A stretch of 64,000 nt of DNA from Ignavibacteria bacterium (lineage in GTDB: Bacteria > Bacteroidota > Ignavibacteria > Ignavibacteriales > SURF-24), in assembly GCA_025612375.1 (NCBI GenBank), contig JAAXKN010000007.1, positions 1 through 64,000 on the forward strand, in the 5' to 3' direction. Shown here one piece after another: positions 15,046 to 34,019 of the stretch (position 1 is the first letter of the stretch; every line of letters starts with the position of its first letter). The position numbers and the translations under genes were made by a program. The notes under the pieces are model-generated. The model worked only from the letters and a program-made list of their open reading frames with translations, searched no databases and was not told the DNA's origin.

Positions 15046-16449
15046 TCATCCTGCTTTTAATTTCATCAGGTTCAAAGATCTCTGAATTACAATTGTAAAT
15101 CCCACGACAAGAACGAGGTTCATCCAGAAATTGTCCGCAAGACGCCCCAAAAGATAAAATGCCACCGCATAGAGAATGAGCGTAAGGAGCTCTTTTATCT
15201 GATATGTAACTTTTAAGGGCCTTGAAATAACGAACAGATAAATAAATCCTGCAAAGAAGCTTATCATTGTTGCCAGCGCAGCACCCATTATGCCGTATTT
15301 CGGAATAAGTATAAAGTTCAAAGCTACGTTTACTATAAAAGCCGCAAGGTCACTTATCAGGAAGTGATAGCTTTTCCCCGACTGATAAGGATAGACTGAG
15401 TAAAATGAAACGAGCCCGCTGAACAAATACCCCATAAGAACAAGAGGAATAATAATAATCCCCGGCGTATACTCGGGATTAAATAAGGTTGTGCCGCCCA
15501 GATGAAAGCTGAAAAGGTCTTTTATAAAAAGAGATACACCAAGAAAAATAAGGAGGCTTATGGCAAGAAGCCTGGTCAGACTGTGCCCGAACAAGATGCT
15601 GTAGTTTTTCTCCTGCCTTAAAAGGCGCAGGGAGTAAGGCGTCCATGCGGTCCTGAAGGATATCACAAATATGTTCATCACCATGGCAATTCTGTAAGAA
15701 AAGCTGTATATGCCGACCAGCTTTTTATCCAGGAAATGGTCAAGAATAAACCGGTCCGCCACGTCAACAAACGTTGAGAGGATCCCTGCAATAAGAAGAG
15801 GGAAAGAAAATATCAGAATATTCCTTATGACAGCGTTATCCTTTTTAAGGCTGAAATTTTCCTTTAATACGCCCGCCATAATTACCACAATTACGCCTCC
15901 TGAGAACAGCTGTGCCAGGAAAATCCCTTCAACTCCCCGCCTTAAATAAAAAACAAAGAAGAAGTTGAGAATAAGGTTAAACAGGGCCGAAAGCGATGTG
16001 TAATAAATGACCTGCCTTGATTCTTCTTTTGTCTTAAGGAGATGAAGTACTGTAAGAAAAATGGTGTCAATAAAAAGCATCCATGCCGTAAGAAGTACTA
16101 GCTTTCCATATTCCCATGAACCCAGCAGTAAAAAAGAAACGTTCCTGTTTAAGAGGGTTGCCAAAACTGTAATTACAAGGCTTATCAGAAATATTAGTGA
16201 AAAGCAGGAAGTAAATATTTTCTTTCTTTTACTTTCATCATCTGCCTCCAGGAAATACTTTGAAAACCCGGGGAAAAGTCCCCCCTGGTAAACTGCACTC
16301 ATTACGGCGTAAGCCGACATTAAAAGCGCATAGCGCCCGAAGTCCTCGGCCGGTATCAAGTTTGAATAAAACGGAAGCAGAATAAATCCCAGTGAACGGG
16401 CGAACAGGTTACCTAATGTGTACCACGCAGTTGATTTAAATAGGCTCAT
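15046..16449 (-). CDS. Polysaccharide flippase (Wzx/MATE-like)
   Basis: This 467-residue integral membrane protein has about 12-14 hydrophobic helices and no soluble domain. The N-terminus (FKSTAWYTLGNLFARSLGF) and the helix pattern match the MOP-superfamily flippases that carry lipid-linked glycan units across the inner membrane. It closes a long minus-strand run and lies 17 bases after a glycosyltransferase gene, as expected for a lipid-linked glycan pathway. No Wzy polymerase was recognised nearby. Confidence 0.85.
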   Translation of the reverse strand: MSLFKSTAWYTLGNLFARSLGFILLPFYSNLIPAEDFGRYALLMSAYAVMSAVYQGGLFPGFSKYFLEADDESKRKKIFTSCFSLIFLISLVITVLATLLNRNVSFLLLGSWEYGKLVLLTAWMLFIDTIFLTVLHLLKTKEESRQVIYYTSLSALFNLILNFFFVFYLRRGVEGIFLAQLFSGGVIVVIMAGVLKENFSLKKDNAVIRNILIFSFPLLIAGILSTFVDVADRFILDHFLDKKLVGIYSFSYRIAMVMNIFVISFRTAWTPYSLRLLRQEKNYSILFGHSLTRLLAISLLIFLGVSLFIKDLFSFHLGGTTLFNPEYTPGIIIIPLVLMGYLFSGLVSFYSVYPYQSGKSYHFLISDLAAFIVNVALNFILIPKYGIMGAALATMISFFAGFIYLFVISRPLKVTYQIKELLTLILYAVAFYLLGRLADNFWMNLVLVVGFTIVIQRSLNLMKLKAG

Positions 16450-16466
16450 TTATACTTTTAATGTTA

Positions 16467-17543
16467 TTAAATTACGTTTTTTTCTTTGTAGAGATCATAG
16501 AGTCTCTTGTTTACGCTTTCATAGCCGTGGTATTTCTTAAGCCACAGCTTCCCCTTCTCTCCAAGCGTAAGCCTCAGCTCTCTGGACTCAAGGAGCTCAC
16601 TAAGCTTATTATAAAGCTCCCGGGCATTATTAGCTACAACAAACGGGTTCTCGGGCAGCCACTTTTCATATTCTAGCGTCATATTTGTAACAGTAGGTAT
16701 CCCTATTCCGATTGTTTCGATTCCTGCCTTCCCGTAGCCCGTTCCCCCCATTGTGCCGCCCACCTGGTCTATACAGATATCTGACCGGCTTTTTGCACTA
16801 AGAACTTCAGCGCGAGGCATGTTTTCCAGGAGCAGGAAGCGGATCTTTCTCTCCTTTTTAATCTTATCAATTACAGACAGTATTAGATCCGTACCTTTAT
16901 ATTTCCTGTTTGTCGGGGAGTGCACGATTACGGGCACGTCGTTTTCGGTACTGCTTTTTTCGGGCAGTTCCCCGGGGTCGTAGGGATAGAAAACATATTC
17001 GAGATCTTTTTTCAGGGCCAGGTGGTCATATTCCGAAGTTATGTTAAGATCCGATATTTTATCCAGATCTCTTATTATTCCCCGGGTCCTTAGATCGCTC
17101 CCGTAGTAGCAGCAGACTATCTTTTTCCCTTCTTTTTTCCATTTTTTTGCCTGCCTTGCGTCACGGAAGAAATCAAGGCCTGCATCGTAATGAATAATTT
17201 CAAACTCGTTCAGGTTAAACTCACTGATGAGCCTTTCAACCTTGGGTGCCCTCGTCAGGTCAGTAAATGAAAAGTACCAGCTTTCTAAAATGTTCTTCGG
17301 CTTAAAGACTGGCGCGGCATTGTTTAATGAGGCTTCCCTTAAGGCTACCTTCTTTTTTCTCCACAAAGAAGCAACCTTAAAGCGCGGAAGGGGCCAGTTC
17401 AGGCATATATCTTCCGGAAAATCGCGCTCATTTTTATGAAAAGTAATGATGCGGGAGTCATCACCGCATTTAAGATGCATATCATAAAAGCTGTAAGGGA
17501 CTCCCGCATAATTCATTGGAGCAATGTGTAGGATCTTGTGCAT
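16467..17543 (-). CDS. Glycosyltransferase, GT-B fold, probably GT4-related
   Basis: This 358-residue protein begins with a Rossmann-like KILHIAPMNYAGVPYS strand-loop and has a C-terminal donor-site pattern: a VIVHSPTNRKYKGTD start of the second domain and a GIETIGIGIPTV loop where GT4 proteins carry the EX7E region. The second glutamate region is less standard, so family placement is less sure than for the 13903 gene. It lies between the flippase and FemAB-like genes in the same minus-strand run, which supports a role in surface glycan assembly. Confidence 0.75.
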   Translation of the reverse strand: MHKILHIAPMNYAGVPYSFYDMHLKCGDDSRIITFHKNERDFPEDICLNWPLPRFKVASLWRKKKVALREASLNNAAPVFKPKNILESWYFSFTDLTRAPKVERLISEFNLNEFEIIHYDAGLDFFRDARQAKKWKKEGKKIVCCYYGSDLRTRGIIRDLDKISDLNITSEYDHLALKKDLEYVFYPYDPGELPEKSSTENDVPVIVHSPTNRKYKGTDLILSVIDKIKKERKIRFLLLENMPRAEVLSAKSRSDICIDQVGGTMGGTGYGKAGIETIGIGIPTVTNMTLEYEKWLPENPFVVANNARELYNKLSELLESRELRLTLGEKGKLWLKKYHGYESVNKRLYDLYKEKNVI

Positions 17544-17564
17544 ATTGCTTTAAAGAAGGGGGCT

Positions 17565-18539
17565 TTACTTCAGGTCTTTATAGAAGTAATCCCTGAATAT
17601 ACCTCTCGACCCGAAATTTTCCTTAAAGCGGCCAAGGCCCCAATTGGGCTCCATGTTGACCGTAAAGATACCGAAATCGAGGTACTTAAAGCCTTCGTCC
17701 TGGTATTTTTTCATTATTTCGTAGAAAAGAAGATTTACTGCGCGGTATTCCTGGTACTCCTCGTCATGGCTTATGTAGAATGCAAGCACCACTTTCGGAT
17801 TAACACTGAAATTGCATACGCCGGCAATCAGTTTTTCTCCCACAAATGCACCCCAGAGCCTGATCTTTTTCGGGAACATATACTTCAGTTTCAGAAGCTC
17901 GTCCAACGTATGCGTCGGCGTAACACCGTGCCTCATCTTAAGGTTCTTCTTCAGAATTTCATAGTACTCTTCAAAGCGTTCGCATTCAACAACCTCAACG
18001 CCCTGCTTTATTGCCTTCTTAAGGGCTGTTCTGGCTTCGGGACGGTAGGTATAAATCAGCTTGTCGCGTTCTGTGTCAAGCTGCACTACGCTTGAGACTT
18101 CCCTTTTGAGGTATGAAAATCCGTTTCTTACAAGCGCAAAGTCTATATAATTGCTAAGCTTCGACTGATAGATAATTGGCGGAGGGGTCACCTGGATCCT
18201 GTCCACCTTAAGTTTTTTTGCATGATCCAGGAGTATGTCAACCAGTTCATGCGCATCCTGAAAATTCAGATCAGAGCGGTAGGCAAAGCTGCCGTAGGAG
18301 GCCCCTCCGTGTGAGGACAGGATTTTTTTGCCGTCGCGTTCAAGTATTACAGCCGGAAGAACCGAGAAAAGATTGTTCTTTCTTCTTACAACAATTGATG
18401 CATCCTGGAATCTTCCTTCAGGATGGTAAGAAAGAAATTTTCTGGTATGAAAGATTGTACCGTTATCCGACTCTTCAACAAACTCGTCCCATTCGTGCTG
18501 GGATACGTTAGAAGACTTAAAAGGAGAATATTCAATCAT
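17565..18539 (-). CDS. FemAB/GNAT-like acyltransferase
   Basis: This 324-residue protein resembles the double-GNAT acyltransferases of the FemAB/Acetyltransf_6 group. The diagnostic region is the second half: RPEARTALKKAIKQGVEV, then a GAFVGEKLIAGVCNF strand pair and YLDFGIFTVN. Family members add amino acids or acyl groups to cell-wall or exopolysaccharide precursors, often aided by aminoacyl- or acyl-donor molecules. It has no signal peptide. It lies six bases downstream of a PorV-like gene and upstream of a glycosyltransferase, so glycan modification is a reasonable but unproven role. Confidence 0.78.
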   Translation of the reverse strand: MIEYSPFKSSNVSQHEWDEFVEESDNGTIFHTRKFLSYHPEGRFQDASIVVRRKNNLFSVLPAVILERDGKKILSSHGGASYGSFAYRSDLNFQDAHELVDILLDHAKKLKVDRIQVTPPPIIYQSKLSNYIDFALVRNGFSYLKREVSSVVQLDTERDKLIYTYRPEARTALKKAIKQGVEVVECERFEEYYEILKKNLKMRHGVTPTHTLDELLKLKYMFPKKIRLWGAFVGEKLIAGVCNFSVNPKVVLAFYISHDEEYQEYRAVNLLFYEIMKKYQDEGFKYLDFGIFTVNMEPNWGLGRFKENFGSRGIFRDYFYKDLK

Positions 18540-18545
18540 GGTATT

Positions 18546-19442
18546 TTAGAATTTAAATTTTAAGGAAATAGTGTGAGATGATCCCAAATTCAGCAGAAAC
18601 GGTGTATAAGCATAATCGAAGCTCAGGTTGTACCACTTGAGCCCAAGGCCCGCTGTGAAGCCTTTGGATTCAAATCCTGTCTGATATCCTGCTCTTAAAG
18701 CAATCATATCATCGTAGAGAAGCTCCCCGCCAAAGTTAACGTGTGTATCTTTAGCTACAAGATACTTCTGCACTTCTGCTCCTAATGTAAAGCTCGAATT
18801 AAGCTCATTTAAAAGATCACTATAGAGTGCCCCAAAACGGAAGTCGGAGGGAAGCTTTGTAGCTTCTGTCCTCAAGCCGTTCATGCTGCCCAGGTTTCTG
18901 AATGCGGCACCAAAGTTCAGGCCTTCGACTGGGCTTTCATAAAACATTCCAAGATCAAAGCCGAGTCCGTTCGATTCGTCTGAAAGCAGCCCTTCGTAGA
19001 GGTATTTTACAGTAGCACCGACAGAAATGTGGCTTGTTATACCGAAGCCTGTGGACAGGCTTCCGGCAAAATAATTCGCGTTAAACTTCCCTTCAACTTC
19101 TCCTGGGCGCGTTCTAACTTCAATGTCACTTATTGTAGTGGTATTGACTCCAACTGCCCACGGAAGCCCTAAGAGCTTAAAGCTAACGCCCAGGTATTCG
19201 CTTCTTGTGTCTTCAATCCACTGGTTGTGTGTAAAAAGAATTTCAGGAGATGAAAACCCGGAAAGCATTGCCGGATTATAGTTCAGCGCTGTCACGTCCG
19301 TGGAGTTTACAACCCCCAGGTCACCCATGGCGACATTCCTGGCGCCAAAGCCGAGCTTCAGAAAAGACAAGCCGCTTTTGCCTGCCGTCTGAGCCGAAAT
19401 ATATGTGGAAAATAATAAGAAAACTAAAATTGTTTTTTTCAT
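18546..19442 (-). CDS. PorV/PorQ-family outer-membrane beta-barrel protein
   Basis: This 298-residue exported protein has a signal peptide ending near ISA-QTAGKS. The N-terminal signature LKLGFGARNVAMGDLGVVNS and the NYNPAMLSGF segment are typical of PorV/PorQ proteins, which are FadL-related barrels linked to type IX secretion. The rest alternates in short amphipathic strands, and the final residue is Phe, as in many outer-membrane barrels. The start at MKKTIL is preferred to an in-frame ATG 17 codons upstream, because only this start gives a clean signal peptide. It is the second of two tandem homologues. Confidence 0.85.
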   Translation of the reverse strand: MKKTILVFLLFSTYISAQTAGKSGLSFLKLGFGARNVAMGDLGVVNSTDVTALNYNPAMLSGFSSPEILFTHNQWIEDTRSEYLGVSFKLLGLPWAVGVNTTTISDIEVRTRPGEVEGKFNANYFAGSLSTGFGITSHISVGATVKYLYEGLLSDESNGLGFDLGMFYESPVEGLNFGAAFRNLGSMNGLRTEATKLPSDFRFGALYSDLLNELNSSFTLGAEVQKYLVAKDTHVNFGGELLYDDMIALRAGYQTGFESKGFTAGLGLKWYNLSFDYAYTPFLLNLGSSHTISLKFKF

Positions 19443-19519
19443 ATAATACCAAAAGTTCCTTACAAAATTACCTTTTGTTAAACCAATAAGCAACTGTTCT
19501 AAAAATCACAAACTAAGCA

Positions 19520-20521
19520 TTAAAAGTTGACGTTAATGCCAAGTATGTGCTCTCCGGAGGATGAATAAGGCTCCGGTACAAATGCGTAGTCAATTCCCGC
19601 AATAAAACCTGAGAGCTTCTTAAAGTAAGAAAAACCAACTGCAGGGCGTGCAGGATAATCCTTATTGCTTAAATTAAGCTTGTCTATGCCGCCCCTTAAG
19701 AAGAGCTGGTCGTAGATATTGTACTCTGCCCCGAACCTCAGGAAATTTGCCCCTTTGCCGTAGCCTTCAAATTCAGCTGAGGCAATTATTTTATACTCAG
19801 GGATGCGGTAGCTTAAGCCCACTTTTTTCCCTATCGGGAATTTATTCTCTGTCGTTTTCCCGCTTTCCTGCCTTACAGGCGCGGTATCCCATTTGTACTT
19901 GCTGTTTAAGTCAGTAAGGACTAAAGACAGGTTCATTCTTCCGCTCAATGTGTAAAGGGCTCCAATGTCAAAGCCGATTCCGCTCGTTGTAATCTTTTCA
20001 TAGAGCTTAAAGTAGTAGAATTTAACTGCAAGGCCGATGGCAAGTTTTTCAGAAAACCTGTTTGAAAAGCTCAGGAAAAACTGATTTTCGGAGGTGGACA
20101 GGTCTCCGGTCTGCATACCCTGATTATCACGTCCGTCAATTTTTGTCACGCCGGCATTAATAATTCCGAAGCTCAGGCCCGGCGTCCTTACTTGTCTTTT
20201 TGCCGTATCCTGGCTTTTTGATTTAAGCTCAAACCTTTTGGTAAAATTCAAAAAGTTCAGCGTCCTGTCGAGCGAAAGGAAAGAATAAGAGGCGGCAAAT
20301 GAATTATCCTGCTGGAAAGCAGAAAGTGCCGGGTTATAATAGGAAACCAGGTTGCCTTCTGTTATTGAAGACATTGCGTTTCCCATGCCTATTCCTCTTG
20401 CGCCAAAACCCAGGCGGCTGAATGCCCCGGGCATACTGCTTATTTCGCTATAGCCCGCCTGAGGGAATAATGAGGATGCCATTAAAAAGAAGAAAACTGA
20501 AATTATAATGGGCTTTTTCAA
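19520..20521 (-). CDS. PorV/PorQ-family outer-membrane protein, TTG start
   Basis: This 333-residue homologue of the next gene has a signal peptide (residues 1-20, MKKPIIISVFFFLMASSLFP), a LGFGARGIGMGNAMSSIT signature, a YYNPALSAFQ segment and a terminal Phe. The start codon is TTG; a GAGGT ribosome binding site lies five bases before it and no upstream ATG fits. Proteins of this family act in type IX secretion or in sorting of secreted surface proteins. The gene directly follows a secreted propeller with a type IX-like C-terminus, so the two may work together. Confidence 0.84.
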   Translation of the reverse strand: MKKPIIISVFFFLMASSLFPQAGYSEISSMPGAFSRLGFGARGIGMGNAMSSITEGNLVSYYNPALSAFQQDNSFAASYSFLSLDRTLNFLNFTKRFELKSKSQDTAKRQVRTPGLSFGIINAGVTKIDGRDNQGMQTGDLSTSENQFFLSFSNRFSEKLAIGLAVKFYYFKLYEKITTSGIGFDIGALYTLSGRMNLSLVLTDLNSKYKWDTAPVRQESGKTTENKFPIGKKVGLSYRIPEYKIIASAEFEGYGKGANFLRFGAEYNIYDQLFLRGGIDKLNLSNKDYPARPAVGFSYFKKLSGFIAGIDYAFVPEPYSSSGEHILGINVNF

Positions 20522-20563
20522 TAGGACCTCAAAATATTGTATTAAAATCTGTTTGCTAAAATG

Positions 20564-22153
20564 TTATAATAAAACTATTACTTTGCCGAAAACCGGGTCA
20601 CCCGAGCCTTTATCGATCCTGTAGAAGTAAACTCCGTTTGGAACAATTTTGCCGTTTTCATCGCGCCCGTCCCAGTAGTCTATAACACCGTTACTGATAT
20701 TGCTCTGCCCTTCAACGGCATGAAAGCTGGCACCTCTTTCTGCATTCTGAATAACCGTCCTGACGAGGTTCATTCCAAAGTCAAAGATCCTGATGGTGAC
20801 GTTTGTCCTGGTGCCGCCAGTCGAGTACTTAATGCTTAACCTTTCCACGTCTGGCGAAAATGGGTTCGGAAACGCATAGGCTTCATTTTGAGAGGAAAGA
20901 GGCTGTGTAGCATAAAAAAGCTTCCAGTCTCCCTGCCACATTGAACCAGTCTCATTCAGCCTTGCAAGCCCGGCCTCTGTTCCAATCCATACTGTGTTAT
21001 CCTGTGAGGCCGCGGCATAATAAACTGTATTCTGAAGTGAAATGCCCGACTGCTTATCCACGATCTGCCCGGGAAGTATCCACGACTGCCCCATGTTACT
21101 GGACCTGAAGGGCCCGTTGTCGGCTGTTGCAATGACGTCCTGACCTTTAAAGCCGAAGTTATGCACCTTCTCGTCCTCCAGTGTTGTCTGCCAGGAGCTT
21201 CCGCCATCTTTTGAATAGCTTACTGCGTAGAATTCCGAGGTCTCCTCAGCCTTCCAGGTTGCAGCCCATATGGAGCTTGTTTCAGTGTTGTAGCCCATTG
21301 CGACCACAAAGTTACCGCTTATGGGAGAGGGCTGATTCTGATGTGTAAATTTCTGCCAGCTTATGCCGCCGTCGGTTGATTTATTTATTCCGCCCGCAGT
21401 CCCGGCGTATAAATTGTTGCCCGCGTCAGTTATTACAGAAAACACTCTGTGGTTCAGGTTGCTCTCGGAGCCGAAGTTGCCCGCAACGGGCTGAAGCGCA
21501 AAATGCAGTGTGTCTGTGGGCATAATGCTGTCCAGCCTGTCCGGAGGAAGCACCACCCTCTGCCAGGTTTTACCCATGTCAGTACTTTTTCTTAAGCCCC
21601 CGGCATATGAAGATATCCAGACCGTCCCGGGCGTAAGTGCAATGTCGTAAGCGAGGTTGTTAACGGCAACCGTAACAGGGAGGGCTCTTAACCTGTTTAT
21701 GCCGTAATTAATAACAGAATCCCCGGGGGCATCAACAGGCTGAGGAACTGCGTTCCACGTATTTCCGTTGTCTTTGGAATACCTGAGGCCGCTTCCTTCT
21801 GAAAGACTCTGCCCGTCTTTTTCGACGCTGTGTGCCGTTGCGGCCCAGATAACGCCGTTTGAATATGCTAGAGCCGAAATGCTTTCACTTCCAAAGGCCT
21901 CAGTGCCGTAATAGTTTGTCCAGTTCTCCCCTCTGTCGGTAGAACGGCTTAAGCCGCGGCTTGTGCCAACCCATACGGTATCCCCAACGGTCAGAATGTC
22001 GCTTATGCTGTTGCTTATTGGTGTTAAAGATGAAGTCTTCTGTATTTTCTCCCTCTTCATGCCATACGACTCAGGGCTGATCTGGGCATATCCCATGCCG
22101 GTCAAAAAAAGAAGAAGGGTCAGAACTATCGGGAAAAGGGTTTTAATTTTCAT
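20564..22153 (-). CDS. Secreted beta-propeller protein with FlgD-like/type IX C-terminal domain
   Basis: This 529-residue exported protein has a signal peptide (residues 1-24). Residues 40-410 contain repeats of the BNR/sialidase-type propeller (SxDxGxxW: STDRGENWTNY, SKDNGNTWNAV, STDMGKTWQRV, STDGGISWQKF, SKDGGSSWQTT). The last 100 residues match the FlgD-like Ig/type IX sorting domain: AYAFPNPFSPD, then DYWDGRDENGKIVPNGVYFY. The start overlaps the end of the lipoprotein gene by four bases. It is probably a surface or secreted protein; the propeller may bind polysaccharide or protein, and no catalytic residues were recognised. Confidence 0.83.
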   Translation of the reverse strand: MKIKTLFPIVLTLLLFLTGMGYAQISPESYGMKREKIQKTSSLTPISNSISDILTVGDTVWVGTSRGLSRSTDRGENWTNYYGTEAFGSESISALAYSNGVIWAATAHSVEKDGQSLSEGSGLRYSKDNGNTWNAVPQPVDAPGDSVINYGINRLRALPVTVAVNNLAYDIALTPGTVWISSYAGGLRKSTDMGKTWQRVVLPPDRLDSIMPTDTLHFALQPVAGNFGSESNLNHRVFSVITDAGNNLYAGTAGGINKSTDGGISWQKFTHQNQPSPISGNFVVAMGYNTETSSIWAATWKAEETSEFYAVSYSKDGGSSWQTTLEDEKVHNFGFKGQDVIATADNGPFRSSNMGQSWILPGQIVDKQSGISLQNTVYYAAASQDNTVWIGTEAGLARLNETGSMWQGDWKLFYATQPLSSQNEAYAFPNPFSPDVERLSIKYSTGGTRTNVTIRIFDFGMNLVRTVIQNAERGASFHAVEGQSNISNGVIDYWDGRDENGKIVPNGVYFYRIDKGSGDPVFGKVIVLL

Positions 22154-22932
22154 TTAACATAGATGTTATGGGTAATAATATTGCTTAAGGAATCGCTTCT
22201 GTCTACTGCCTGAAAAACAAACTGTCTTGTTTTTCCTTTTGTTTCCAGAGTAAAATAATTGCTGAATGAGTAAATGTCGTCGCCTTTTACCTCATCGCCA
22301 TGCAGAAGCTCCCCGTCGTTCCACATGTCCACGTTAGGCGAAGCAGATCCGTCTTCCAGGCGTATAAACTTGAAATATACTTTCTTCACGTCGGTAAGGC
22401 CGTTTTTGTCTGTTACCCTGACAGAAAAGTTAAAAGGTACGCCTGCGTTAACCGTATCGGGCATTACGAGATCGGACAAAACAGGAGGATAATCCGTTTG
22501 TTTATTATCATACTTAAAAGTGTGTTCGGCAACTTTATTTGTCAGACCATCAGTACTTTGTACAAAATATTCAATTTTGTATATGCCGTTGACGTAGCTT
22601 TGCGAAAACGGATACCGGTTGGAAAAAACGTTATCACCTTTGGCTGTATCCCCAAGTGCCTTATTGCCGTTATCTGCAAGCTGGAAAGGCCTTTCATTCA
22701 TCTTTGTCCCGTCGGGAGAATAAACGTCAATCCAGACCTGCTCGATGTCGCTTGATGAATTAAGCTTTAAGGTCACTGTGAAAGATGAATCGGCATTGTC
22801 AAAAACGAAATCCGCCGGAGCATCCATTCCCGTCACCTCATAGCTGCTTTCGTGTACATCGCTTACTCCGGATGGAATCTTATCGCAGCCGAAAAACAGG
22901 GCTAAACAAAACAGGATAATATAATTTTTCAT
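22150..22932 (-). CDS. Putative lipoprotein of unknown function
   Basis: This 260-residue protein has a short signal peptide ending in ALFFGC, with Cys16 as likely lipid-attachment site, although the lipobox is not ideal. Two Ig-like stretches follow, each with a similar pattern: FTVTLKLNSSSDIEQVWIDV then DNGNKALGDTAKGDNVFSNR, and FNFSVRVTDKNGLTDVKKVY then NDGELLHGDEVKGDDIYSFS. The repeated GDxxKGDxxxS segment suggests an internal duplication. The last four bases overlap the start of the propeller gene (ATGA), so the two proteins are probably made together. No function is assigned. Confidence 0.78.
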   Translation of the reverse strand: MKNYIILFCLALFFGCDKIPSGVSDVHESSYEVTGMDAPADFVFDNADSSFTVTLKLNSSSDIEQVWIDVYSPDGTKMNERPFQLADNGNKALGDTAKGDNVFSNRYPFSQSYVNGIYKIEYFVQSTDGLTNKVAEHTFKYDNKQTDYPPVLSDLVMPDTVNAGVPFNFSVRVTDKNGLTDVKKVYFKFIRLEDGSASPNVDMWNDGELLHGDEVKGDDIYSFSNYFTLETKGKTRQFVFQAVDRSDSLSNIITHNIYVK

Positions 22933-22975
22933 TGGGTTAGTTTAAGTTTAAATTTAAAATATATCAAGCTCTAAA

Positions 22976-23989: not shown

Positions 23990-23991
23990 TT

Positions 23992-24822
23992 TTACAAATC
24001 CAAATTAAATCCGATTGCATTATAAGATTTTAGATAGTCAAAGTATTCGCCGTGCATGCTCATTCCCGAATAATATGAATAATAAAGGCTGAATCCCCTG
24101 CCCTCAGAGTGCCCTACCTTTATTCCAAGGTTAAACGTGTTCTCTGCAGAATACTTGCGTATTTTAACCATCTTTATGTCATAAGCAGCAAATGGCGTAA
24201 CATAATTAAATAATTTATTCTTCAGGAAATAATCAAAACCCGCCTGATAGTTATATTTCCCAAGATAAGTCGGATCGATATGGAAAATATATGTAAGTCC
24301 CGCGTAGACTCTTAAATTATTCATCCTGTAGAACGGAATAAACTCCAGGAACTCACGGCTATATACCCTCGGGTTCTGGTTATCGCGCCAGATCAGATTC
24401 TTAAAATCATAGTGCCCGTCTGCAAAATGCGCGCTTATGTGGCTTAGGCGGAACCTGAGCCCGTATTCGCCGTCTTCAATTGTTTTCTTGTATCCGGCAT
24501 TTACGCCGAAAAGGTAATCTACGGCATCTACAGGAAAATGGAAATCCTTTTCGCCTCTAAGCAGTGTATAGGTAAAGAAATCTGCACCAATGGAGAGGTT
24601 TTCTTTCTCACTTAGGGAGAAATTAACCAGATCCATGGAGCTTCCTATATCGAGCCTTAGTTCATTATTATTTACATGAAACAGAACCCCCATTCTGGGT
24701 TCAAGAGCATTAGCGGTAAATGGCTGAATATTTAATTTATCGGGGAACAGTTTTACTTCCGTCTGTGAGTAAGCCATCACATTAAAAAAGAACAGAGCTG
24801 TTATAACTGAAATAATTCTCAT
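23992..24822 (-). CDS. Exported protein of unknown function, paralogue of 31178 gene
   Basis: This 276-residue protein has a signal peptide (residues 1-19). It contains the segments LEPRMGVLFHV, LRLDIGSSMDLV and FRLSHISAHFADGHYD, which recur in the protein encoded at 31178-32047. The His/Asp-rich segment recalls the DUF1207 family (a family of unknown function with a related HxSxHxGD motif), but that is only a resemblance. The alternating strands and aromatic residues suggest a beta-barrel. It lies 19 bases downstream of the radical SAM gene and two bases upstream of the M50 protease gene. Confidence 0.72.
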   Translation of the reverse strand: MRIISVITALFFFNVMAYSQTEVKLFPDKLNIQPFTANALEPRMGVLFHVNNNELRLDIGSSMDLVNFSLSEKENLSIGADFFTYTLLRGEKDFHFPVDAVDYLFGVNAGYKKTIEDGEYGLRFRLSHISAHFADGHYDFKNLIWRDNQNPRVYSREFLEFIPFYRMNNLRVYAGLTYIFHIDPTYLGKYNYQAGFDYFLKNKLFNYVTPFAAYDIKMVKIRKYSAENTFNLGIKVGHSEGRGFSLYYSYYSGMSMHGEYFDYLKSYNAIGFNLDL

Positions 24823-24841
24823 AATAGAAATAATTAAATGT

Positions 24842-25822
24842 TTAGTTTTGAAAATTCTTCTTTACTTTCTGAACGATTAGCTTGTTAAAGCTGTATTTTA
24901 GTTTTGAACCTAAACTTTGTATTGAATAAATATCCAAAGGGAATGCAAATGACGGCTCAAAGTAGCAGTTCACCGTGCATCCTGAGCAAAACTGAAAGCG
25001 CCCTTCCATTTCCATGTATTTTTTTAATTCTTCTGACTTTCTGATCTCTTTAAGCGGCCTGTCAATCGGAACGGTTTTATTGGCAAAGTGATAGCACGGC
25101 AGCACAATTTTATTATCCGGGGATATAACTATTACGCGTGAAACAGCCTTGCAGCTGGGCTTATTTATATCATTGCCGCCATTTTTCCGGAGCCTTAAGA
25201 ATGCCCCGTTCATATAAACGTCCAGCTTCCCCTTGATAAACTCTTCCAGGTATTCAATTGCTTCCTCATTCAGCCCCGGGTTGTCGAAATAAGAGAATAC
25301 AGGGTTAATTATCAGAACCAGCCCGTACTTCTGCGTAATTTCATACATTCGCGGAAGCTTCCTGAAGTTCTCGTTTGTTGCCGTAAAGAGAATATCGGGA
25401 TATTCACCAAGCGACTTTGCAATTTCAATGCTCTTAAAAATGCTCTTAAAGCATTTTACCCTTCTTATACTGTTGTGCTCTTCTTCATCCGGAGAATCCA
25501 TTGAGAAATGCAGAAGGTTGATTTTACCCGCCAATTTATCGGCATATTTGGGATAAAGCAAGGTATTTGTCGTTATACTTGTCTGCATCCTCAGGCTGCG
25601 GGCAAAGCCGGCCATTTCTGCTATATCTTTATTCAGAAGAGGTTCACCCCCCGTAAGATCAATGAATTTTACGCCGAGACGGGCAAGCTGGCTGACATTA
25701 TTCTTAAAATCCTGGAGAGATGCTTCCGGGAAAGTACTAAATTTCTCGTGATCGGCAAAATGACAGAACTCACAAGAGGAATTGCACTTGTAGGTAACAT
25801 AATAATTACAAAGTAAGAGCAT
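24842..25822 (-). CDS. Radical SAM protein with C-terminal SPASM-like cysteines
   Basis: This 326-residue enzyme uses a [4Fe-4S] cluster to cleave S-adenosylmethionine into a radical. The cluster motif is Cys13-x3-Cys17-x2-Cys20 (CNSSCEFC), followed by the SAM-binding DLTGGEPLL. The C-terminal part holds more cysteines (CKAVSRVIVISPDNKIVLPC and CSGCTVNC), as in SPASM/twitch domains binding an extra cluster. The substrate is not predictable. Its start overlaps the stop of the upstream GT2 gene by one base (TGATG), a strong hint of shared function, possibly modification of an envelope product. Confidence 0.86.
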   Translation of the reverse strand: MLLLCNYYVTYKCNSSCEFCHFADHEKFSTFPEASLQDFKNNVSQLARLGVKFIDLTGGEPLLNKDIAEMAGFARSLRMQTSITTNTLLYPKYADKLAGKINLLHFSMDSPDEEEHNSIRRVKCFKSIFKSIEIAKSLGEYPDILFTATNENFRKLPRMYEITQKYGLVLIINPVFSYFDNPGLNEEAIEYLEEFIKGKLDVYMNGAFLRLRKNGGNDINKPSCKAVSRVIVISPDNKIVLPCYHFANKTVPIDRPLKEIRKSEELKKYMEMEGRFQFCSGCTVNCYFEPSFAFPLDIYSIQSLGSKLKYSFNKLIVQKVKKNFQN

Positions 25823-26913
25823 CAGTAATTCCTGCCTTTCCAGACTACTTTTCTACTGGGAATAACTATGAAAGGTAATAAAAGGACGTAAATTATAAAA
25901 TAGACTTCAAAGCTCGCAAAATACTTCAGCTTTTTAACGAGGTTAAATTTCTTAAGCACCGGATATAAAACAAAAAAGTCCGTACTTATCTTAAAGACCA
26001 CAAGATAAAGAGCAGTGGCACTGAAGAAAAACGGCGTCAGTACTGTAAATAGATTTGCCAGAAATCCGCTGGCCATGACAAGGAATCCTTTGATATCGCT
26101 GTCCAGTCCGCCTACACCCCACCTTTTCTTCTGCCAGAAAAGGGACTTAAAGTCGTAGCACGGTTTGGATTCAACTAAAGCTCCTGCCTCAAGAGGATAG
26201 ATAATCTTATACCTGCCCAGTTTGAACATTGCCTTAAGGAGGTTAAAATCCTCCGTCACGCTGAACTTGAGCGCCTCATAGCCGCCAATTTCCTTGTAAG
26301 CCGACTTTCTGTATGACATGTTGTTGCCAATACAGCTTAGAGGAAAATTAAGATTCATAGATCCTGCTGCAACAGTAAGCAGGTACATAAAATCCAGCAT
26401 CTGCATTCCGCTGAACTGATCTGTCGCCTCCTGCGTCGTATAACCGCATACCATGGCAACATCCTCTTCGTAATATGAGGCAATTGACCTTGCCCATTCC
26501 GGCTGTACCTGGCAGTCGGCATCGGTTGTCAGAATCACTTCGCCCTTTGCTATTTCAATAGCATTGGCGAGCGCGTTTGTTTTCCCTTTCAGGTGGTCTA
26601 CTTTATGCGTCGTGCAAATGCACTTAAACTTCGGCTTTCCGGAAATAAAATCTTCAACAATTTTACGCGTGCTGTCCGTGGAACTGTCATCTACAATAAT
26701 TATCTCAATTTTACCTTCGGGATATTCAAGACGATCGAGCGAACTCAGGCACCTTCCGATATTCTCCTCTTCGTTTCTTGCAGCAACTATTACACTGACT
26801 GAAGGAAGTTTTTCGTAAGGAATCTTTTTATATCTTTTGCCAGCTCCAACAAGCAGCATAAACGACTGCAGGAAATAAAGGCCTACTGCTATTAAAAAAA
26901 TAGTTTCAAACAT
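25822..26913 (-). CDS. Membrane glycosyltransferase family 2 (processive type)
   Basis: This 363-residue enzyme has one N-terminal helix, a cytoplasmic GT2 domain and about three C-terminal helices. Its catalytic motifs are complete: IIVDDSSTDST, TTDADCQ, VTEDFNL and QKKRW. The QxxRW motif and membrane helices are typical of processive synthases such as those making poly-N-acetylglucosamine or related glycans. It lies directly upstream of the radical SAM gene with a one-base overlap. The product cannot be inferred more precisely. Confidence 0.88.
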   Translation of the reverse strand: MFETIFLIAVGLYFLQSFMLLVGAGKRYKKIPYEKLPSVSVIVAARNEEENIGRCLSSLDRLEYPEGKIEIIIVDDSSTDSTRKIVEDFISGKPKFKCICTTHKVDHLKGKTNALANAIEIAKGEVILTTDADCQVQPEWARSIASYYEEDVAMVCGYTTQEATDQFSGMQMLDFMYLLTVAAGSMNLNFPLSCIGNNMSYRKSAYKEIGGYEALKFSVTEDFNLLKAMFKLGRYKIIYPLEAGALVESKPCYDFKSLFWQKKRWGVGGLDSDIKGFLVMASGFLANLFTVLTPFFFSATALYLVVFKISTDFFVLYPVLKKFNLVKKLKYFASFEVYFIIYVLLLPFIVIPSRKVVWKGRNY

Positions 26914-27034
26914 CTGTCAAAGGTCCCGGCACTATTAAAGAAGAATACGTAATTATTTATTAAGTCAATCGGAATTTTTTTTTGTAAATGTACTAATATT
27001 TGAGCTATAAGTGAAGAAAATTAACTCACTAAAT

Positions 27035-27691
27035 TCATCTTTTCGAAAGGCTTGTTCCTGCCGTCCCGAACTTATAGCCCTTCAAAGAAGCCTCTTCAGC
27101 GATTAGCTCAATTGAGTCCCTGAGCACCCCTTTGCTTTTGGAGTTGTCGTGGAGTACAATAATGGAATTCTGCCTTAGGCTTTTCTTAATCCCCTTTTTA
27201 ACCACGCTGAAGTTATTCTGAAAATCATACGTAAGGAGCGACCAGAGGACCATGTAAAGCCCGTTACTTTTTGCAATTCTGTGTGTCATATGGTCGAACT
27301 TGCCGTACGGGGGGCGGAAGAATTTCATCCTGCGGCCAAACTTGTCCATGGCTGCACTGTTTGTACTCTCAATTTCATCAGATACAACCTTTTTGTCCAG
27401 AAATGAAAGCTTCCTGTGGTTATAAGTGTGGTTGCCGATTTCGTGCCCCTCGCTTAAAATTTCACCAAGCAGGGAGCTGTAACGGTTGACATTATTGCCC
27501 ACGCAAAAGAATAGTGACTTAATTCCATATTTATTCAGCGCCTGGAGAATAATTCCTGTTGTATCAGGATTCGGCCCGTCATCAAAGGTCATCATGATGC
27601 GGTTATCCGTAGTGTTCCAGTAGAAAAAAGGAAGCGCTTTTTTTATAATCAGAGGAGGGTCATAAACGTACATAAACTTCTGTCTTTCCAT
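27035..27691 (-). CDS. Polysaccharide deacetylase (NodB domain)
   Basis: This 218-residue enzyme belongs to the carbohydrate esterase 4/NodB group, which removes N-acetyl groups from glycans. The metal and catalytic motifs are clear: TFDDGP (residues 35-40) for motif 1, HEIGNHTYNH for motif 2 and RPPYG for motif 3. There is no signal peptide, so it may act in the cytoplasm on lipid-linked precursors, or use an unusual route. The first 43 bases overlap the end of the upstream GT2 gene in another frame, so the pair is co-translated and probably works on the same glycan. Confidence 0.9.
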   Translation of the reverse strand: MERQKFMYVYDPPLIIKKALPFFYWNTTDNRIMMTFDDGPNPDTTGIILQALNKYGIKSLFFCVGNNVNRYSSLLGEILSEGHEIGNHTYNHRKLSFLDKKVVSDEIESTNSAAMDKFGRRMKFFRPPYGKFDHMTHRIAKSNGLYMVLWSLLTYDFQNNFSVVKKGIKKSLRQNSIIVLHDNSKSKGVLRDSIELIAEEASLKGYKFGTAGTSLSKR

Positions 27692-28815
27692 TTAATCTTG
27701 CCAACGAGTGAAAAGGGCTGGAGCACAATTGTATAAGGAAATACCAGGAGTTCTGTAAAGAGAACTTCAAGGAGATTATACCTGTCGTGCAGGAGCCTTG
27801 AACCCAGGTCAAGCACAAAAATATCAATTAGGACTTTCAGCATGAAAACAACGGCCGCAATCTTAAGAAGCGGAATGTTAAGCGTAAAAAGTGACCAGGC
27901 CAGGCATATGAAAAGCACCGCAATAAAAGAGAACACAAGGGCTCCCAGCGCGATTAAATCGTATGAATAGTGCTTTGTTATAGCCATGTGCCTTTTTTTC
28001 CTGTTGATGTAGTTGTCATTCTTAAGAATGGACTTTACGACAGAATCTTTTGAAGTTGCATAGGCAACTTTTGTAACTTTTGAGGCCTTCTGTACAAAAA
28101 GGTCGTCATCCCCTGCCGCAATTACGGCATTTTCACCAAAGCCGCCAAGCTTATAGTAGAGATCCTTCCTGTATGAGAAATTGCCGCCGCCTGCAATGTA
28201 AGGCTTTTTAAGCCCTATAAACGACATTGCAATAATCGCCATGGCAAGGCTTTCGAGGCTTTTTAGCTTTTCAAGAAAGCCCGGCCTGTGAGATTCAAGT
28301 CTCGTGTAGCCGGCAACGCATCCAACGCCGTCTTCATAAAAAGAAACGATCTGGCTTATCCAGTCTTTTGAAGGGCGGCAGTCGGCATCCGTAGTAAGAA
28401 TAATTTCACCTTTGCTTGATTCAATTCCGGTGTGCAGTGCGTTTTTCTTCGGTCCCCAGTTAAGCACATTCTTTCTTGCCGGAATTACTCTCGCCTCAGG
28501 AGTGCCCGCAGATTTATCTTTAAGCTTTATTTCTTTTGCAATTACTCTTTCGGCAAAGTTCCTTGTCCTGTCTGTTGAATTATCGTCAACAATAATTACT
28601 TCATATTCAGTGTATGTCTGATGCAAAAGAATTTCAAGTAAGTCCTCAATATTATCCTCCTCATTTCTTGCTGCAACTATGACTGAAACAAACGGGCTTG
28701 TCTTTAAGGCGGAACGTTTTTTTCCTGAAGTCCGGTTAATCCCGAAACTGACAAGGAAGCCGATGATGGCATAAACCAGCAGTCCTGCAAACAGCAAATA
28801 TATTAGTATGTCCAT
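27649..28815 (-). CDS. Membrane glycosyltransferase family 2, divergent QxxRW motif
   Basis: This 388-residue GT2 has one N-terminal helix and about four C-terminal helices. The nucleotide-sugar motifs IIVDDNSTDRT and TTDADCRP and the base region AAGDDDLFVQ are present, but the final motif reads RKKRH in place of QxxRW, replacing the tryptophan that lines the acceptor channel. It may use a different acceptor or transfer a single sugar. It overlaps the NodB gene, so its product is probably the substrate for that enzyme. No obvious purine-rich ribosome binding site precedes the ATG. Confidence 0.86.
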   Translation of the reverse strand: MDILIYLLFAGLLVYAIIGFLVSFGINRTSGKKRSALKTSPFVSVIVAARNEEDNIEDLLEILLHQTYTEYEVIIVDDNSTDRTRNFAERVIAKEIKLKDKSAGTPEARVIPARKNVLNWGPKKNALHTGIESSKGEIILTTDADCRPSKDWISQIVSFYEDGVGCVAGYTRLESHRPGFLEKLKSLESLAMAIIAMSFIGLKKPYIAGGGNFSYRKDLYYKLGGFGENAVIAAGDDDLFVQKASKVTKVAYATSKDSVVKSILKNDNYINRKKRHMAITKHYSYDLIALGALVFSFIAVLFICLAWSLFTLNIPLLKIAAVVFMLKVLIDIFVLDLGSRLLHDRYNLLEVLFTELLVFPYTIVLQPFSLVGKIKWKDRSLCTFMTLL

Positions 28816-28984
28816 AAAAGAAGGATGATAAAAATTATCAGAAATCAGTTAAATAATTAACACAGATGAACTGTATATTTGAAATGCTAATTTAATAATA
28901 AACCTGAAATAAATGGAACATTTTTTATTTCAGCTTTATTTGTTATGTTTATTTTCCTAATTATATCACTCCGGAAACATATTT

Positions 28985-30127
28985 ATGACAATCAGCATAG
29001 TATTTCTTTTTCTTTCACTTTTCTATCTTACTTTTACGCTTTGGGTAAGGCACGGGGTCGCGAGGCTGAAGAATGCCCCTCTTAAAGCTATAGGTGAGCT
29101 GCCAACGGTCTCAGTTTACGTACCTGCAAGAAATGAAGAAGCCAACTTACACAGGACTTTAACCTCACTGGAAAACCAGACCTATCCGAAAGAGAAGCTG
29201 ACTGTTGTAATGATTAACGACCGTTCCACAGATTCAACTGAAGAGGTAATGAAGGAATTTGCCTCCAGGAATGCTAACTTCAGGCTTATCAATATAGAGA
29301 GCTTGCCGGCAGGTATTGCACCAAAGAAGCACGCCCTCATGAATGCCATTGCCCGGACGGATTCAGAAATAATCGTAACAACTGATGCCGATTGCATTCA
29401 CTCCCCCGCGTGGCTGATGAATATGATCAGTCACTTTAACGATGGCGTGGCGCTTGTGACGGCACTCACGGTTTTTGATCCGGATGACTACACCGTATTC
29501 CATGAGCTTCATACGCTTGACTTCCTTTCCCAGGCCGTTGTCTCAGCCGGCGCAATGGGTCAGGGCCTTCCTCTTATGTGTTCAGCTCCAAACCTGGCGT
29601 ATAAAAGGAAAGTCTTTAATGAAGTTGGGGGCTATGGCGATAGTTCCAGCTGCGTCTCGGGTGACGACAACCTCTTCCTGCAGAACCTGGTAAAAAACGG
29701 GAATTATAAAACCGCCTTTGCCTTGGGCAAAGATACAATTGTAAAGTCACTTCCACCCAAAAGCGTCAAAGGCGTGTGGCATCAGCGCCTGCGCTGGGGC
29801 ACACAGGGAGCTTTCTATCCCTTAAAGATCAAGCTTGCCGGGGCAGTCGTTTTCCTTTATTATCTGTCAATTGTACTTTCTCCCCTGTTCTATCTTCTTG
29901 GCGTGAGCCTCAGTGTTCTATTAGCCCTGGGAATTGTTAAAGTTGCGGCGGACTTTTTTGTAATTAAATATGGATTCAAAGTCCTCGGTATTAAATTCAA
30001 GACAAAGATTTTCATTCTGCTGTCTTTGATTCATCCCCTGCTTATTATAGCAACACTCTTAAGCTCTCTTACAATCCCATTTGACTGGAAAGGATCGAAC
30101 CTGAGGCCGAAGGTAAAAGAAGCTTAA
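28985..30127 (+). CDS. Membrane glycosyltransferase family 2 (plus strand)
   Basis: This third GT2 of the locus has 380 residues, one N-terminal helix and about three C-terminal helices. Its motifs are complete: MINDRSTDST, TTDADCIH, VSGDDNLFLQ and QRLRW. It is transcribed opposite to its two paralogues and divergent from the one at 27649, with 169 bases between them that presumably hold both promoters. It is convergent with the LPG-synthase-type gene. The three GT2 proteins share the same layout and probably arose by duplication. Confidence 0.88.
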   Translation: MTISIVFLFLSLFYLTFTLWVRHGVARLKNAPLKAIGELPTVSVYVPARNEEANLHRTLTSLENQTYPKEKLTVVMINDRSTDSTEEVMKEFASRNANFRLINIESLPAGIAPKKHALMNAIARTDSEIIVTTDADCIHSPAWLMNMISHFNDGVALVTALTVFDPDDYTVFHELHTLDFLSQAVVSAGAMGQGLPLMCSAPNLAYKRKVFNEVGGYGDSSSCVSGDDNLFLQNLVKNGNYKTAFALGKDTIVKSLPPKSVKGVWHQRLRWGTQGAFYPLKIKLAGAVVFLYYLSIVLSPLFYLLGVSLSVLLALGIVKVAADFFVIKYGFKVLGIKFKTKIFILLSLIHPLLIIATLLSSLTIPFDWKGSNLRPKVKEA

Positions 30128-30145
30128 AAGAGCGAAGAAAATGAG

Positions 30146-31153
30146 CTAATCTTCTATTTTGTTTTCAGATGCGGCAGCACTGGCTTTTGCTGAGCCTTTA
30201 GTGTTAAATAGCAGCAGCACGCCCGGGATGGAAGGAAGAAGAACGTTTATAAAGAAAAGAAATATCGCAGCGTTAAATCCGACTGCCGAGCTCAGGCCCA
30301 GCTTTACGGCAAAGAACACAGAAGCGCTTTCCCTTATTCCAAGTTCCCCGAATGTTACAGGCGGAATAACCGCCTTGGCAAAGAATATCAGCATGCCAAG
30401 CCAGAAATAAGTCATTATATCCCACCCGTTTGAAAAAGCAGCAACCAGGAATCCATACTGCGCAATATATGTAAGATATGTAACAAAAGTGTTTAATGAG
30501 ATGTCAAGAGAAGTTCTGCCGCTTAAGAGCTTAAATGTCCTGAGCCCGTCCATAAACTCCGTCAGGCGTCTGGATTTTGAAGTTAACCTTATAATCATCC
30601 TTTCCCAGAAATCCGTTTTCAGCACCGAGTACAGGTAGAAAAATAAGGATAGAAGAATAACCGCTAGAAGCACCAGGAGCCATGCTTTCCCTATTCCATA
30701 GGAACTATATAGGAATACCGCGCTTGCAACAGCACCGATGAAAAACACCGGCACAAATGCAAAGAATTTATCTATAAGCGTTGCAAGCGTCACTTTAAGC
30801 GCTTTTTTGCCCTTAAAGGCAAGTGCGCGCCCCACATACTCACCAAGCCTGAATGGCGTAATTATGCCGGCTGAAAAACCGTATAAAAGAGAGTTAAGGA
30901 TAATCTTTCTTTCTCTCTCTTCAACAATCTCCCGGCACAGAATTTTCCACTTCCAGTACTGCAGGTATATATTTAAGAAACTCAGAATGCAGGCTGCTGC
31001 AATCATAAAATAATTTGCGCCGTTAAGTGCCGCCATTATTTCCCTGAAGCTTACGGCGCTGATTAGATAAATCAGCAGTCCAATAGCTATCAGGACCTTC
31101 AGAAAAGAGACAGCTCTGCCTTTATATTTTTTTGCGAAAATTACTTTATTCAT
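30146..31153 (-). CDS. LPG-synthase-type membrane protein (UPF0104/flippase-like)
   Basis: This 335-residue membrane protein has about eight helices and matches the transmembrane part of lysylphosphatidylglycerol synthase/MprF, seen in many envelope clusters (for example in AglD-like proteins). Typical segments are FRLGEYVGRALAFKG and PPVTFGELGIRESASVFF. The aminoacyl-transferase domain is absent, so it is not an LPG synthase itself. Family members are thought to move lipid-linked sugars. It ends with a short polar tail. The start is 24 bases from the end of the exported-protein gene at 31178. Confidence 0.84.
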   Translation of the reverse strand: MNKVIFAKKYKGRAVSFLKVLIAIGLLIYLISAVSFREIMAALNGANYFMIAAACILSFLNIYLQYWKWKILCREIVEERERKIILNSLLYGFSAGIITPFRLGEYVGRALAFKGKKALKVTLATLIDKFFAFVPVFFIGAVASAVFLYSSYGIGKAWLLVLLAVILLSLFFYLYSVLKTDFWERMIIRLTSKSRRLTEFMDGLRTFKLLSGRTSLDISLNTFVTYLTYIAQYGFLVAAFSNGWDIMTYFWLGMLIFFAKAVIPPVTFGELGIRESASVFFAVKLGLSSAVGFNAAIFLFFINVLLPSIPGVLLLFNTKGSAKASAAASENKIED

Positions 31154-31177
31154 AAATTAAGTCTGAATCTGGCTGCC

Positions 31178-32047
31178 TTAAAGAAAATCAATAGAAAAGC
31201 CGATGCCGAACCTTTGTATATTATCCTTAAAATACTCGCTGAACATGTTGTTGCCGGTATAGTAGTTTAAGTAAAGGAGTATCCCTTTGTCGAACCACTG
31301 TCCGAATTTAACGCCGGCCACCAAATTATTGTTGCCATGAAAGACAGGAGTACCAAGTATATTTATGTAGTAAGCGGCAAACAAGTTGAAATCCTTCCGG
31401 AAAACCTGTCCGAAAGGGTTATAGAAAGCGTATTCAAACCCCGAGCTGAAGGAATATTTTTTTATTTCAAGAGGTCTTACCAGTGTAGAGTAGGCCGGGC
31501 CTCCAAAGATCCTGAAGGAGTAGTTTTTCTTAAAAGCCTCATAGCCAAGTAATAGCTCCCCGAAATCCCTCGTAAAAGGGATTGGTGTCTTTGAACCTCT
31601 CCAGACCCCCTGCTCCACGTCGTAATGCCCGTCAACAAGGTGGGCGCTGTTGTGGATGATCCTGAACCTTGAAATGAGCCTTCCTTCATCATAGCTTTTT
31701 GAAAAAGCAGCATTGCCGCCGAAAAATCCGTCGAGAGCGTCTATCTGAAGCCTGTGCCCGCTGTAGCTTGTAGAGTAGGCATAAGCCATAAACTCTACCC
31801 CGAAGGTCAGCACTCCCCTTGATGAGGGGAATTTAAGCTTCAGAAGGTCAACCGAGTTGCCAATATCCACCTTCAGGTTGGCGTCAGACGGATAATACAG
31901 AATACCCATCCTTGCCTCCTGGTAGCTTGCCTTCAAAGGCATAAAATGAAGCCCCGAAGGCGCAAATTCATAATTAACCGATGCAGAATCAGTCTGACTG
32001 AATAAGAGGCATGGGAACAGCACTAAGAGTAAAACGGACCTAAACAT
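31178..32047 (-). CDS. Exported protein of unknown function, paralogue of 23992 gene
   Basis: This 289-residue protein has a signal peptide (residues 1-17) and shares with the 23992 protein the segments EARMGILYYP, LKVDIGNSVDLL and FRIIHNSAHLVDGHYD. The two paralogues stand at the outer ends of the GT2/radical SAM block and share a His/Asp motif like that of DUF1207. The ATG start was used; a TTG four codons upstream is in frame, but nothing favours it. A beta-rich, barrel-like pattern suggests an outer-membrane location, which is inference. Confidence 0.7.
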   Translation of the reverse strand: MFRSVLLLVLFPCLLFSQTDSASVNYEFAPSGLHFMPLKASYQEARMGILYYPSDANLKVDIGNSVDLLKLKFPSSRGVLTFGVEFMAYAYSTSYSGHRLQIDALDGFFGGNAAFSKSYDEGRLISRFRIIHNSAHLVDGHYDVEQGVWRGSKTPIPFTRDFGELLLGYEAFKKNYSFRIFGGPAYSTLVRPLEIKKYSFSSGFEYAFYNPFGQVFRKDFNLFAAYYINILGTPVFHGNNNLVAGVKFGQWFDKGILLYLNYYTGNNMFSEYFKDNIQRFGIGFSIDFL

Positions 32048-32137
32048 ACTAATGCTCAAAAATTGTGGAGTTTATAACATGGCAAAGATAAGAAATAATT
32101 ATAAATACTTCATGAGCGCTCATCATAATTTATCCCG

Positions 32138-33912: not shown

Positions 33913-33919
33913 CTAAAAG

Positions 33920-33946
33920 AAAAGGCTCCCTAATAAGGGCCTTTTT
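33920..33946 (+). terminator. Rho-independent terminator after bshC
   Basis: AAAAGGC and CCC pair with GGG and CCTTTTT across a 6-base loop, leaving one bulged T in the stem; a T-run follows. It begins seven bases after the bshC stop. The reverse strand also has a T-rich end, so it could in part serve the convergent aroA gene. Confidence 0.78.
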
Positions 33947-34019
33947 CATAAAACCTGGGTTGTATCAAATTAACAATTGATGCTTCCTATAAGCTTACTT
34001 CTGCCATAAAACATCTCTT

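Follow-up and report, generated by a model that had tools for sequence, protein, structure and literature searches.

In the HpnI-HpnK-HpnJ pathway, N-acetylglucosamine is placed on a lipid by a family 2 glycosyltransferase (GT2), the amine is freed by a deacetylase, and the head group is completed by a radical SAM enzyme (PMC12583986). For type IX secretion, the linking-sugar pathway Wbp/Vim includes VimE, a CE4 deacetylase, and VimA, which matches the TIGR03019 family (PMC7468200). At the outer membrane, OMPLA carries a His142-Ser144-Asn156 triad on the exterior of its barrel (PMC5043575). In this article, a locus is described from a 64-kb stretch of DNA (the window) of an Ignavibacteria bacterium with an assembly of 5.23 Mb, in which membrane GT2 enzymes, a NodB-type deacetylase, a radical SAM (rSAM) enzyme, a flippase-like membrane protein (LPG_TM), and two predicted outer-membrane barrels of the domain family DUF1207 are encoded close together. 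The rSAM enzyme of the closest named relative, an Ignavibacteria metagenome-assembled genome, is 84% identical. With a probability of roughly 0.5, this locus makes a tailored amino-sugar lipid for the envelope by means of a conserved cassette and the DUF1207 proteins. The genes at its center are as follows.

31178-32059, minus strand: DUF1207b, predicted paralogous outer-membrane barrel associated with LPG_TM-GT2-NodB (PF06727, E 2.5e-6)
30146-31153, minus strand: LPG_synthase_TM/flippase-like integral membrane protein, candidate lipid-linked-sugar translocator (PF03706, E 2.8e-21)
28985-30127, plus strand: GT2a, membrane glycosyltransferase, divergent (PF00535, E 2.7e-23)
27649-28815, minus strand: GT2b, membrane glycosyltransferase, overlapping NodB (PF00535, E 8.7e-26)
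27035-27691, minus strand: NodB/CE4 polysaccharide deacetylase (PF01522, E 6.9e-34, 116.9 bits, above the Pfam cut-off)
25822-26913, minus strand: GT2c, membrane glycosyltransferase of PgaC/HpnI-like architecture (PF00535, E 1.7e-28)
24842-25822, minus strand: rSAM enzyme (PF04055, E 3.2e-21)
23992-24822, minus strand: DUF1207a, predicted 12-strand outer-membrane barrel (PF06727; AlphaFold2 model)
22976-23989, minus strand: M50 site-2 protease-like membrane protein with HEFGH and LDGGH (PF02163, E 2.2e-19)
22150-22932, minus strand: lipoprotein with lipobox LFFGC and a weak Ig-like match (domain scan and sequence)
20564-22153, minus strand: secreted BNR propeller with a weak type IX-like C-terminal domain (BNR/Sortilin-Vps10 matches)
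19520-20521, minus strand: PorVb, PorV/PorQ-like outer-membrane protein (NF033709, 80.6 bits, cut-off 90)
18546-19493, minus strand: PorVa, PorV/PorQ family outer-membrane protein (NF033709, 158.9 bits, above the cut-off of 90)

Gene order was compared across 59 Ignavibacteriales genomes (the order sample), with neighbor counts taken from 41 annotated loci. Loss of this order in relatives, which the first-pass annotation of the DNA had held to speak against its own reading, was not seen; the order is strongly conserved instead. GT2c, rSAM where it occurs, DUF1207, and M50 are grouped in 57 of the 59 genomes, orthologues of GT2c being present in 58/59 and of DUF1207a in 57/59, with M50 adjoining DUF1207a in 57/59. 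One exceptional genome (G005) is without DUF1207a and has M50 located elsewhere, while the other (G053) is without GT2c, DUF1207a, and M50 and retains LPG_TM, a GT2, NodB, and DUF1207b. The rSAM orthologue occurs in 31/59 genomes and is absent from about half. Among the loci scored for each pair, immediate adjacency is complete or nearly so from the upper part (LPG_TM-GT2 21/21, NodB-GT2c 27/27, rSAM-DUF1207a 17/17) through the middle (DUF1207a-M50 40/40, M50-lipoprotein 38/39, lipoprotein-propeller 38/38) to the PorV part (propeller-PorVb 37/37, PorVb-PorVa 34/36). It becomes looser at the edge of the block, where FemAB directly follows PorVa in 25/36 loci and the next glycosyltransferase follows FemAB in 9/28. 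At the other end, DUF1207b lies directly before LPG_TM in 8/10 scored loci of the order.

As a measure of background, 200 kb around the locus were fetched in four complete relatives. All four retain the whole segment from GT2c to PorVa, and most of the remaining genes of the window are not found within approximately 100 kb; since the block stays intact while its surroundings disperse, it is an island of conserved order and not a product of general synteny. A GT9 homologue near the block is the only gene outside it that is kept in all four relatives, one of which (G026) additionally retains TrmH-AroA-BshC and some further neighbors. The genes for BshC (bacillithiol), AroA, and TrmH, at 32287-35887 of the window, form a separately conserved neighborhood at the DUF1207b/LPG_TM end, and a BshC homologue also lies close to the cassette in the genomes of a distant family, f28 (L116-L119).

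Beyond the order, a phylum sample of 247 genomes was considered, with families labelled f13, f19, and f28. Orthologues of rSAM, 47-53% identical, occur in 12 of its genomes outside the order. In four genomes of f28, a distant Bacteroidota family outside the class, rSAM closes a six-gene operon, GT2-LPG_TM-GT2-NodB-GT2-rSAM, whose genes mostly overlap and are each supported by Pfam; DUF1207 was not found in these four genomes. In other families of the class, the NodB-GT2c pair occurs with or without rSAM, NodB-GT2c-DUF1207 without rSAM is also seen, and one f13 genome possesses the full row LPG_TM-GT2-NodB-GT2c-rSAM-DUF1207-M50. The eleven genes do not behave as a single uniform unit: because the cassette occurs alone in f28, and DUF1207 occurs without rSAM in other families of the class, the locus divides into three layers. 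The core glycolipid cassette, LPG_synthase_TM-GT2-NodB-GT2-rSAM, stands alone elsewhere; the DUF1207-M50-lipoprotein-propeller-PorVb-PorVa block is fixed throughout the Ignavibacteriales and tied to the cassette solely within the class; and FemAB, a glycosyltransferase, and a flippase constitute a variable tail. The genes at the tail end are listed below.

17565-18539, minus strand: FemAB/GNAT-type acyltransferase (PF13480, E 5.2e-10; TIGR03019, 64.3 bits, cut-off 260)
16467-17543, minus strand: glycosyltransferase (GT1/GT4-like), variable tail (PF13524, E 4.9e-5, slightly under the cut-off)
15046-16449, minus strand: Wzx-type flippase, variable tail (PF01943, E 2.6e-24)
13903-15030, plus strand: GT4 glycosyltransferase, convergent, variable tail (PF00534, E 4.1e-19)
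12811-13860, minus strand: GT9 heptosyltransferase-like protein (PF01075, E 2.1e-9)

The gene content given by the first-pass annotation was recovered throughout, with every named gene at the claimed coordinates and supported by Pfam and NCBIfam, including the overlapping GT2-NodB pair, the divergent third GT2, the LPG-synthase-type protein, and the second exported protein. Its run of eleven collinear minus-strand genes, from 26913 to 15046, is even tighter than the gaps of at most 77 bases it had claimed, as the open reading frames are separated by no more than 43 bases (from the listed starts) or overlap by 1-4 bases. Between NodB and GT2c there is a gap of 121 bases in the window and an overlap of approximately 13 bases in most relatives.

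Two further arrangements of the locus were observed in relatives. A second, different rSAM (approximately 25% identical) lies directly before LPG_TM in many relatives (L039:5174-6184, L036, L037, L094-L102, and L153) and is absent from the window locus, which suggests a paralogous tailoring step. In f19 (L172:4513-7241, L175, and L177), GT2c and DUF1207 are separated by a GT28-like gene and a gene for a protein of approximately 540 residues (shortened to 338 in L177); the version in L172, with 541 residues, is without a Pfam match.

The enzymes of the inner membrane largely retain the motifs of their families. In a simple hydropathy scan, GT2a and GT2c each show one N-terminal and two C-terminal transmembrane helices (3-21, 296-314, and 342-360 in GT2a), and both possess QxxRW, as QRLRW beside TDAD in GT2a and as QKKRW in GT2c, nearly all copies of which carry the motif. 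In GT2b, an alignment places RKKRH in the position of QxxRW, a loss that also occurs beside an inverted GT2a in a locus of the same genus (L033). The inversion of GT2a and the GT2b without QxxRW, at 27649-30127 of the window, form a genus-specific arrangement, and relatives have a single colinear GT2. The best NCBIfam match of GT2c is PgaC/IcaA, at 96.9 bits against a cut-off of 422, and HpnI scores 60.5 bits against a cut-off of 310. The CE4 residues of NodB (TFDD, H88, H92, RP, and H181) are invariant in 12 sequences, and neither a signal peptide nor a transmembrane segment was found in the protein; because no such segment is predicted and the CE4 residues are kept, NodB is probably a cytosolic enzyme whose substrate is a lipid-linked sugar. 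In rSAM, both CxxxCxxC and a C-terminal CxxCxxxC are present in all 34 orthologues scanned, BlsE is the nearest solved structure by profile (E 2.7e-16) as well as by fold, and the C-terminus has a weak match to DUF3463.

The exported protein for which the first-pass annotation had offered no identity, while rightly seeing that it occurs in two copies, belongs to DUF1207 and is predicted to form a barrel in the outer membrane; it carries an OMPLA-like motif. DUF1207a and DUF1207b score 38.4 and 27.2 bits, both above the PF06727 gathering cut-off of 22 bits, and are 33% identical to each other. The AlphaFold2 model of DUF1207a (pLDDT 84.6) is a 12-strand barrel, and in a fold search with it OMPLA occupies ranks 1-6 (Z 17.1-17.6, rmsd 3.2-3.5 over 205-214 residues), with the next chain at 15.6; the TM score is 0.57-0.58 against OMPLA and approximately 0.4 against most other listed structures. 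Autotransporters, FadL, KdgM, and LpxR were rejected as the fold of DUF1207, as all score below OMPLA among the barrels listed. R123, R125, H128, S130, H132, and D135 are invariant in 70/70 DUF1207 sequences of both paralogue types, and HxSxHxxD is retained in 19/19 more distant members. Because OMPLA is the best fold match and the invariant HxSxHxxD takes the place of the HxS active site of OMPLA, the best guess from the model is that DUF1207 is an OMPLA-like lipid hydrolase or transacylase. No paper mentioning DUF1207 was found in the open-access literature searched.

On this basis we infer what each enzyme does, what it acts on, which way the product is transported, and how the PorV block is connected. 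The membrane GT2 enzymes would attach a HexNAc-type sugar to a lipid or polyprenyl phosphate, from which the cytosolic NodB would remove the N-acetyl group, freeing the amine, and the rSAM enzyme, related to the sugar-acting BlsE, would alter the sugar. The product may then be carried across the inner membrane by LPG_TM. In the outer membrane, this lipid or lipids next to it may be hydrolyzed or transacylated by the DUF1207 barrels, as OMPLA-like serine enzymes. M50, the lipoprotein, the propeller, and the PorV-family proteins would represent a co-inherited surface-export block, probably using or sensing the product, while FemAB, the glycosyltransferase, Wzx, and GT9 would extend a strain-variable glycan. 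A role in making a surface glycan or glycolipid fits best, and the glycoprotein export that the first-pass annotation had also raised was not borne out.

Several observations weigh against this proposal. Sequence homology between DUF1207 and OMPLA is unsupported, with an hhalign profile-profile probability of 0.9%, and PLA1 (PF02253) in Pfam is matched by none of the 19 DUF1207 members scanned; because homology is undetectable, the relation suggested by the model is that DUF1207 works like OMPLA, not that it is an OMPLA. Barrel folds converge easily, and the candidate third residue varies, residue 157, where the next strand begins, being E in DUF1207a and D, N, or E (mostly D or N) in DUF1207b. 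In several distant genomes rSAM lies apart from the cassette, with LPG_TM, GT2, and NodB elsewhere in some; in one genome (G227) rSAM is present and NodB was not found, and DUF1207 also occurs without a nearby GT2. The rSAM enzyme is confined to genomes that bear NodB (30 have it, 1 lacks it; Fisher p 4e-5), but a dependence on NodB was rejected, as few independent changes underlie this raw association and it lacks significance once the tree is taken into account. Promoter, terminator, and Rfam scans of the locus yielded nothing usable.

The neighboring PorV-family proteins raise another reading, in which the glycolipid anchors type IX-secreted proteins, with NodB, like VimE, exposing a sugar amine, FemAB, like VimA, adding an amino acid, and the PorV/PorQ-like proteins presenting cargo such as the propeller. 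FemAB has a single NCBIfam match, to the same TIGR03019 family as VimA, and NodB and VimE are both CE4 proteins (PMC7468200), but the FemAB score lies far under the family cut-off (64 vs 260 bits). FemAB directly follows PorVa in 25/36 loci, and in many loci it is missing or of another subtype. PorVa exceeds its family cut-off, and the C-terminus of the propeller weakly matches PorZ, PorU, and Por_Secre_tail, all below the cut-offs; on the other hand, the core cassette of f28 lacks PorV genes, and no PorU or Wbp genes are found in the locus, the rest of the genome not having been searched for them. Linking-sugar pathways are reported to vary among species (PMC11969387). Overall, such an anchor appears unlikely. 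A bolder version, in which an undescribed Ignavibacteria pathway anchors these proteins by an rSAM-modified amino-sugar glycolipid that DUF1207, as a new OMPLA-like family, finishes, is rather improbable.

Other readings turn on fewer of the genes. GT2, NodB, and LPG_TM could make a polyprenyl-phosphate amino-sugar donor that decorates lipid A or the lipopolysaccharide core in an ArnC/ArnD- or NaxD-like manner, adding positive surface charge; a membrane GT2, a cytosolic CE4 deacetylase, and a flippase-like protein do adjoin, a GT9 heptosyltransferase-like gene remains nearby, and comparable pathways are known elsewhere. However, the ArnC scores of GT2 are far under the cut-off, no ArnT-like final transferase is found in the locus, and rSAM and DUF1207 are left unexplained, which makes this reading rather unlikely. 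We judge it very improbable that GT2c processively makes an exopolysaccharide resembling partly deacetylated poly-GlcNAc, for which DUF1207 provides the outer-membrane exit pore. PgaC/IcaA is the best NCBIfam match of GT2c, QxxRW is present, NodB adjoins, and DUF1207 is a barrel, but the PgaC score of 96.9 bits is far under the cut-off (422), NodB is not exported, the nearest fold of DUF1207 is that of an enzyme and not a pore, HxSxHxxD is invariant, and rSAM again goes unexplained. Finally, these could be unrelated envelope genes held together merely by shared ancestry and slow rearrangement, since the neighboring TrmH-AroA-BshC is also syntenic in many genomes. Yet the boundaries of the block break repeatedly while its interior does not, the surrounding genes are dispersed, and a family beyond the class has the cassette as well; coincidence of this kind is very unlikely.

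Synthesis of a tailored amino-sugar lipid thus remains the preferred reading. It delimits a small glycolipid cassette that lends itself to testing, in a part of the Bacteroidota that has received little study, and suggests a role for the uncharacterized domain DUF1207. Should this reading hold, outer-membrane glycolipid synthesis would gain a radical SAM step beyond hopanoids, and a second OMPLA-like family of lipid enzymes would be added. It would also be relevant to the choice of glycolipid anchors for type IX-secreted proteins, whose linkers differ among species.

As the first-pass annotation had supposed, no described pathway matching this combination of genes was found in the open-access literature searched. 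The HpnI-HpnK-HpnJ system shares with the locus the order of its chemistry, GT2, deacetylase, and radical SAM, but HpnK belongs to another deacetylase family, the best matches of the locus rSAM include HpnH and BlsE while HpnJ is not among the 25 matches listed, and DUF1207 is additional in the locus. The hopanoid pathway itself was rejected, as no squalene-hopene cyclase was detected (0/59 genomes of the order at E 1e-20) and the scores are far under the Hpn cut-offs. With the Wbp/Vim pathway, the locus has in common a CE4 deacetylase and a TIGR03019-type FemAB next to PorV-family genes; it differs in being without Wbp genes and in adding GT2s, LPG_TM, a radical SAM enzyme, and DUF1207. The identification of the propeller as PorZ was rejected, as the best-scoring match is limited to the C-terminal domain and far under the cut-off. 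BlsE, a radical SAM cytosylglucuronate decarboxylase, is the closest solved structure to rSAM and acts on a sugar, although the identity is approximately 19% and the locus has no nucleoside pathway genes. ArnC/ArnD and NaxD likewise combine a membrane GT2 with a deacetylase on a lipid-linked amino sugar, whereas the locus is without a final transferase and its GT2 is far under the ArnC cut-off. OMPLA (PldA, PF02253) has HxSNG where DUF1207 has HxSxHxxD, with no detectable sequence homology between them, but OMPLA and the DUF1207 model share a 12-strand barrel, an HxS motif, and a polar residue (E, D, or N) that opens the next strand.

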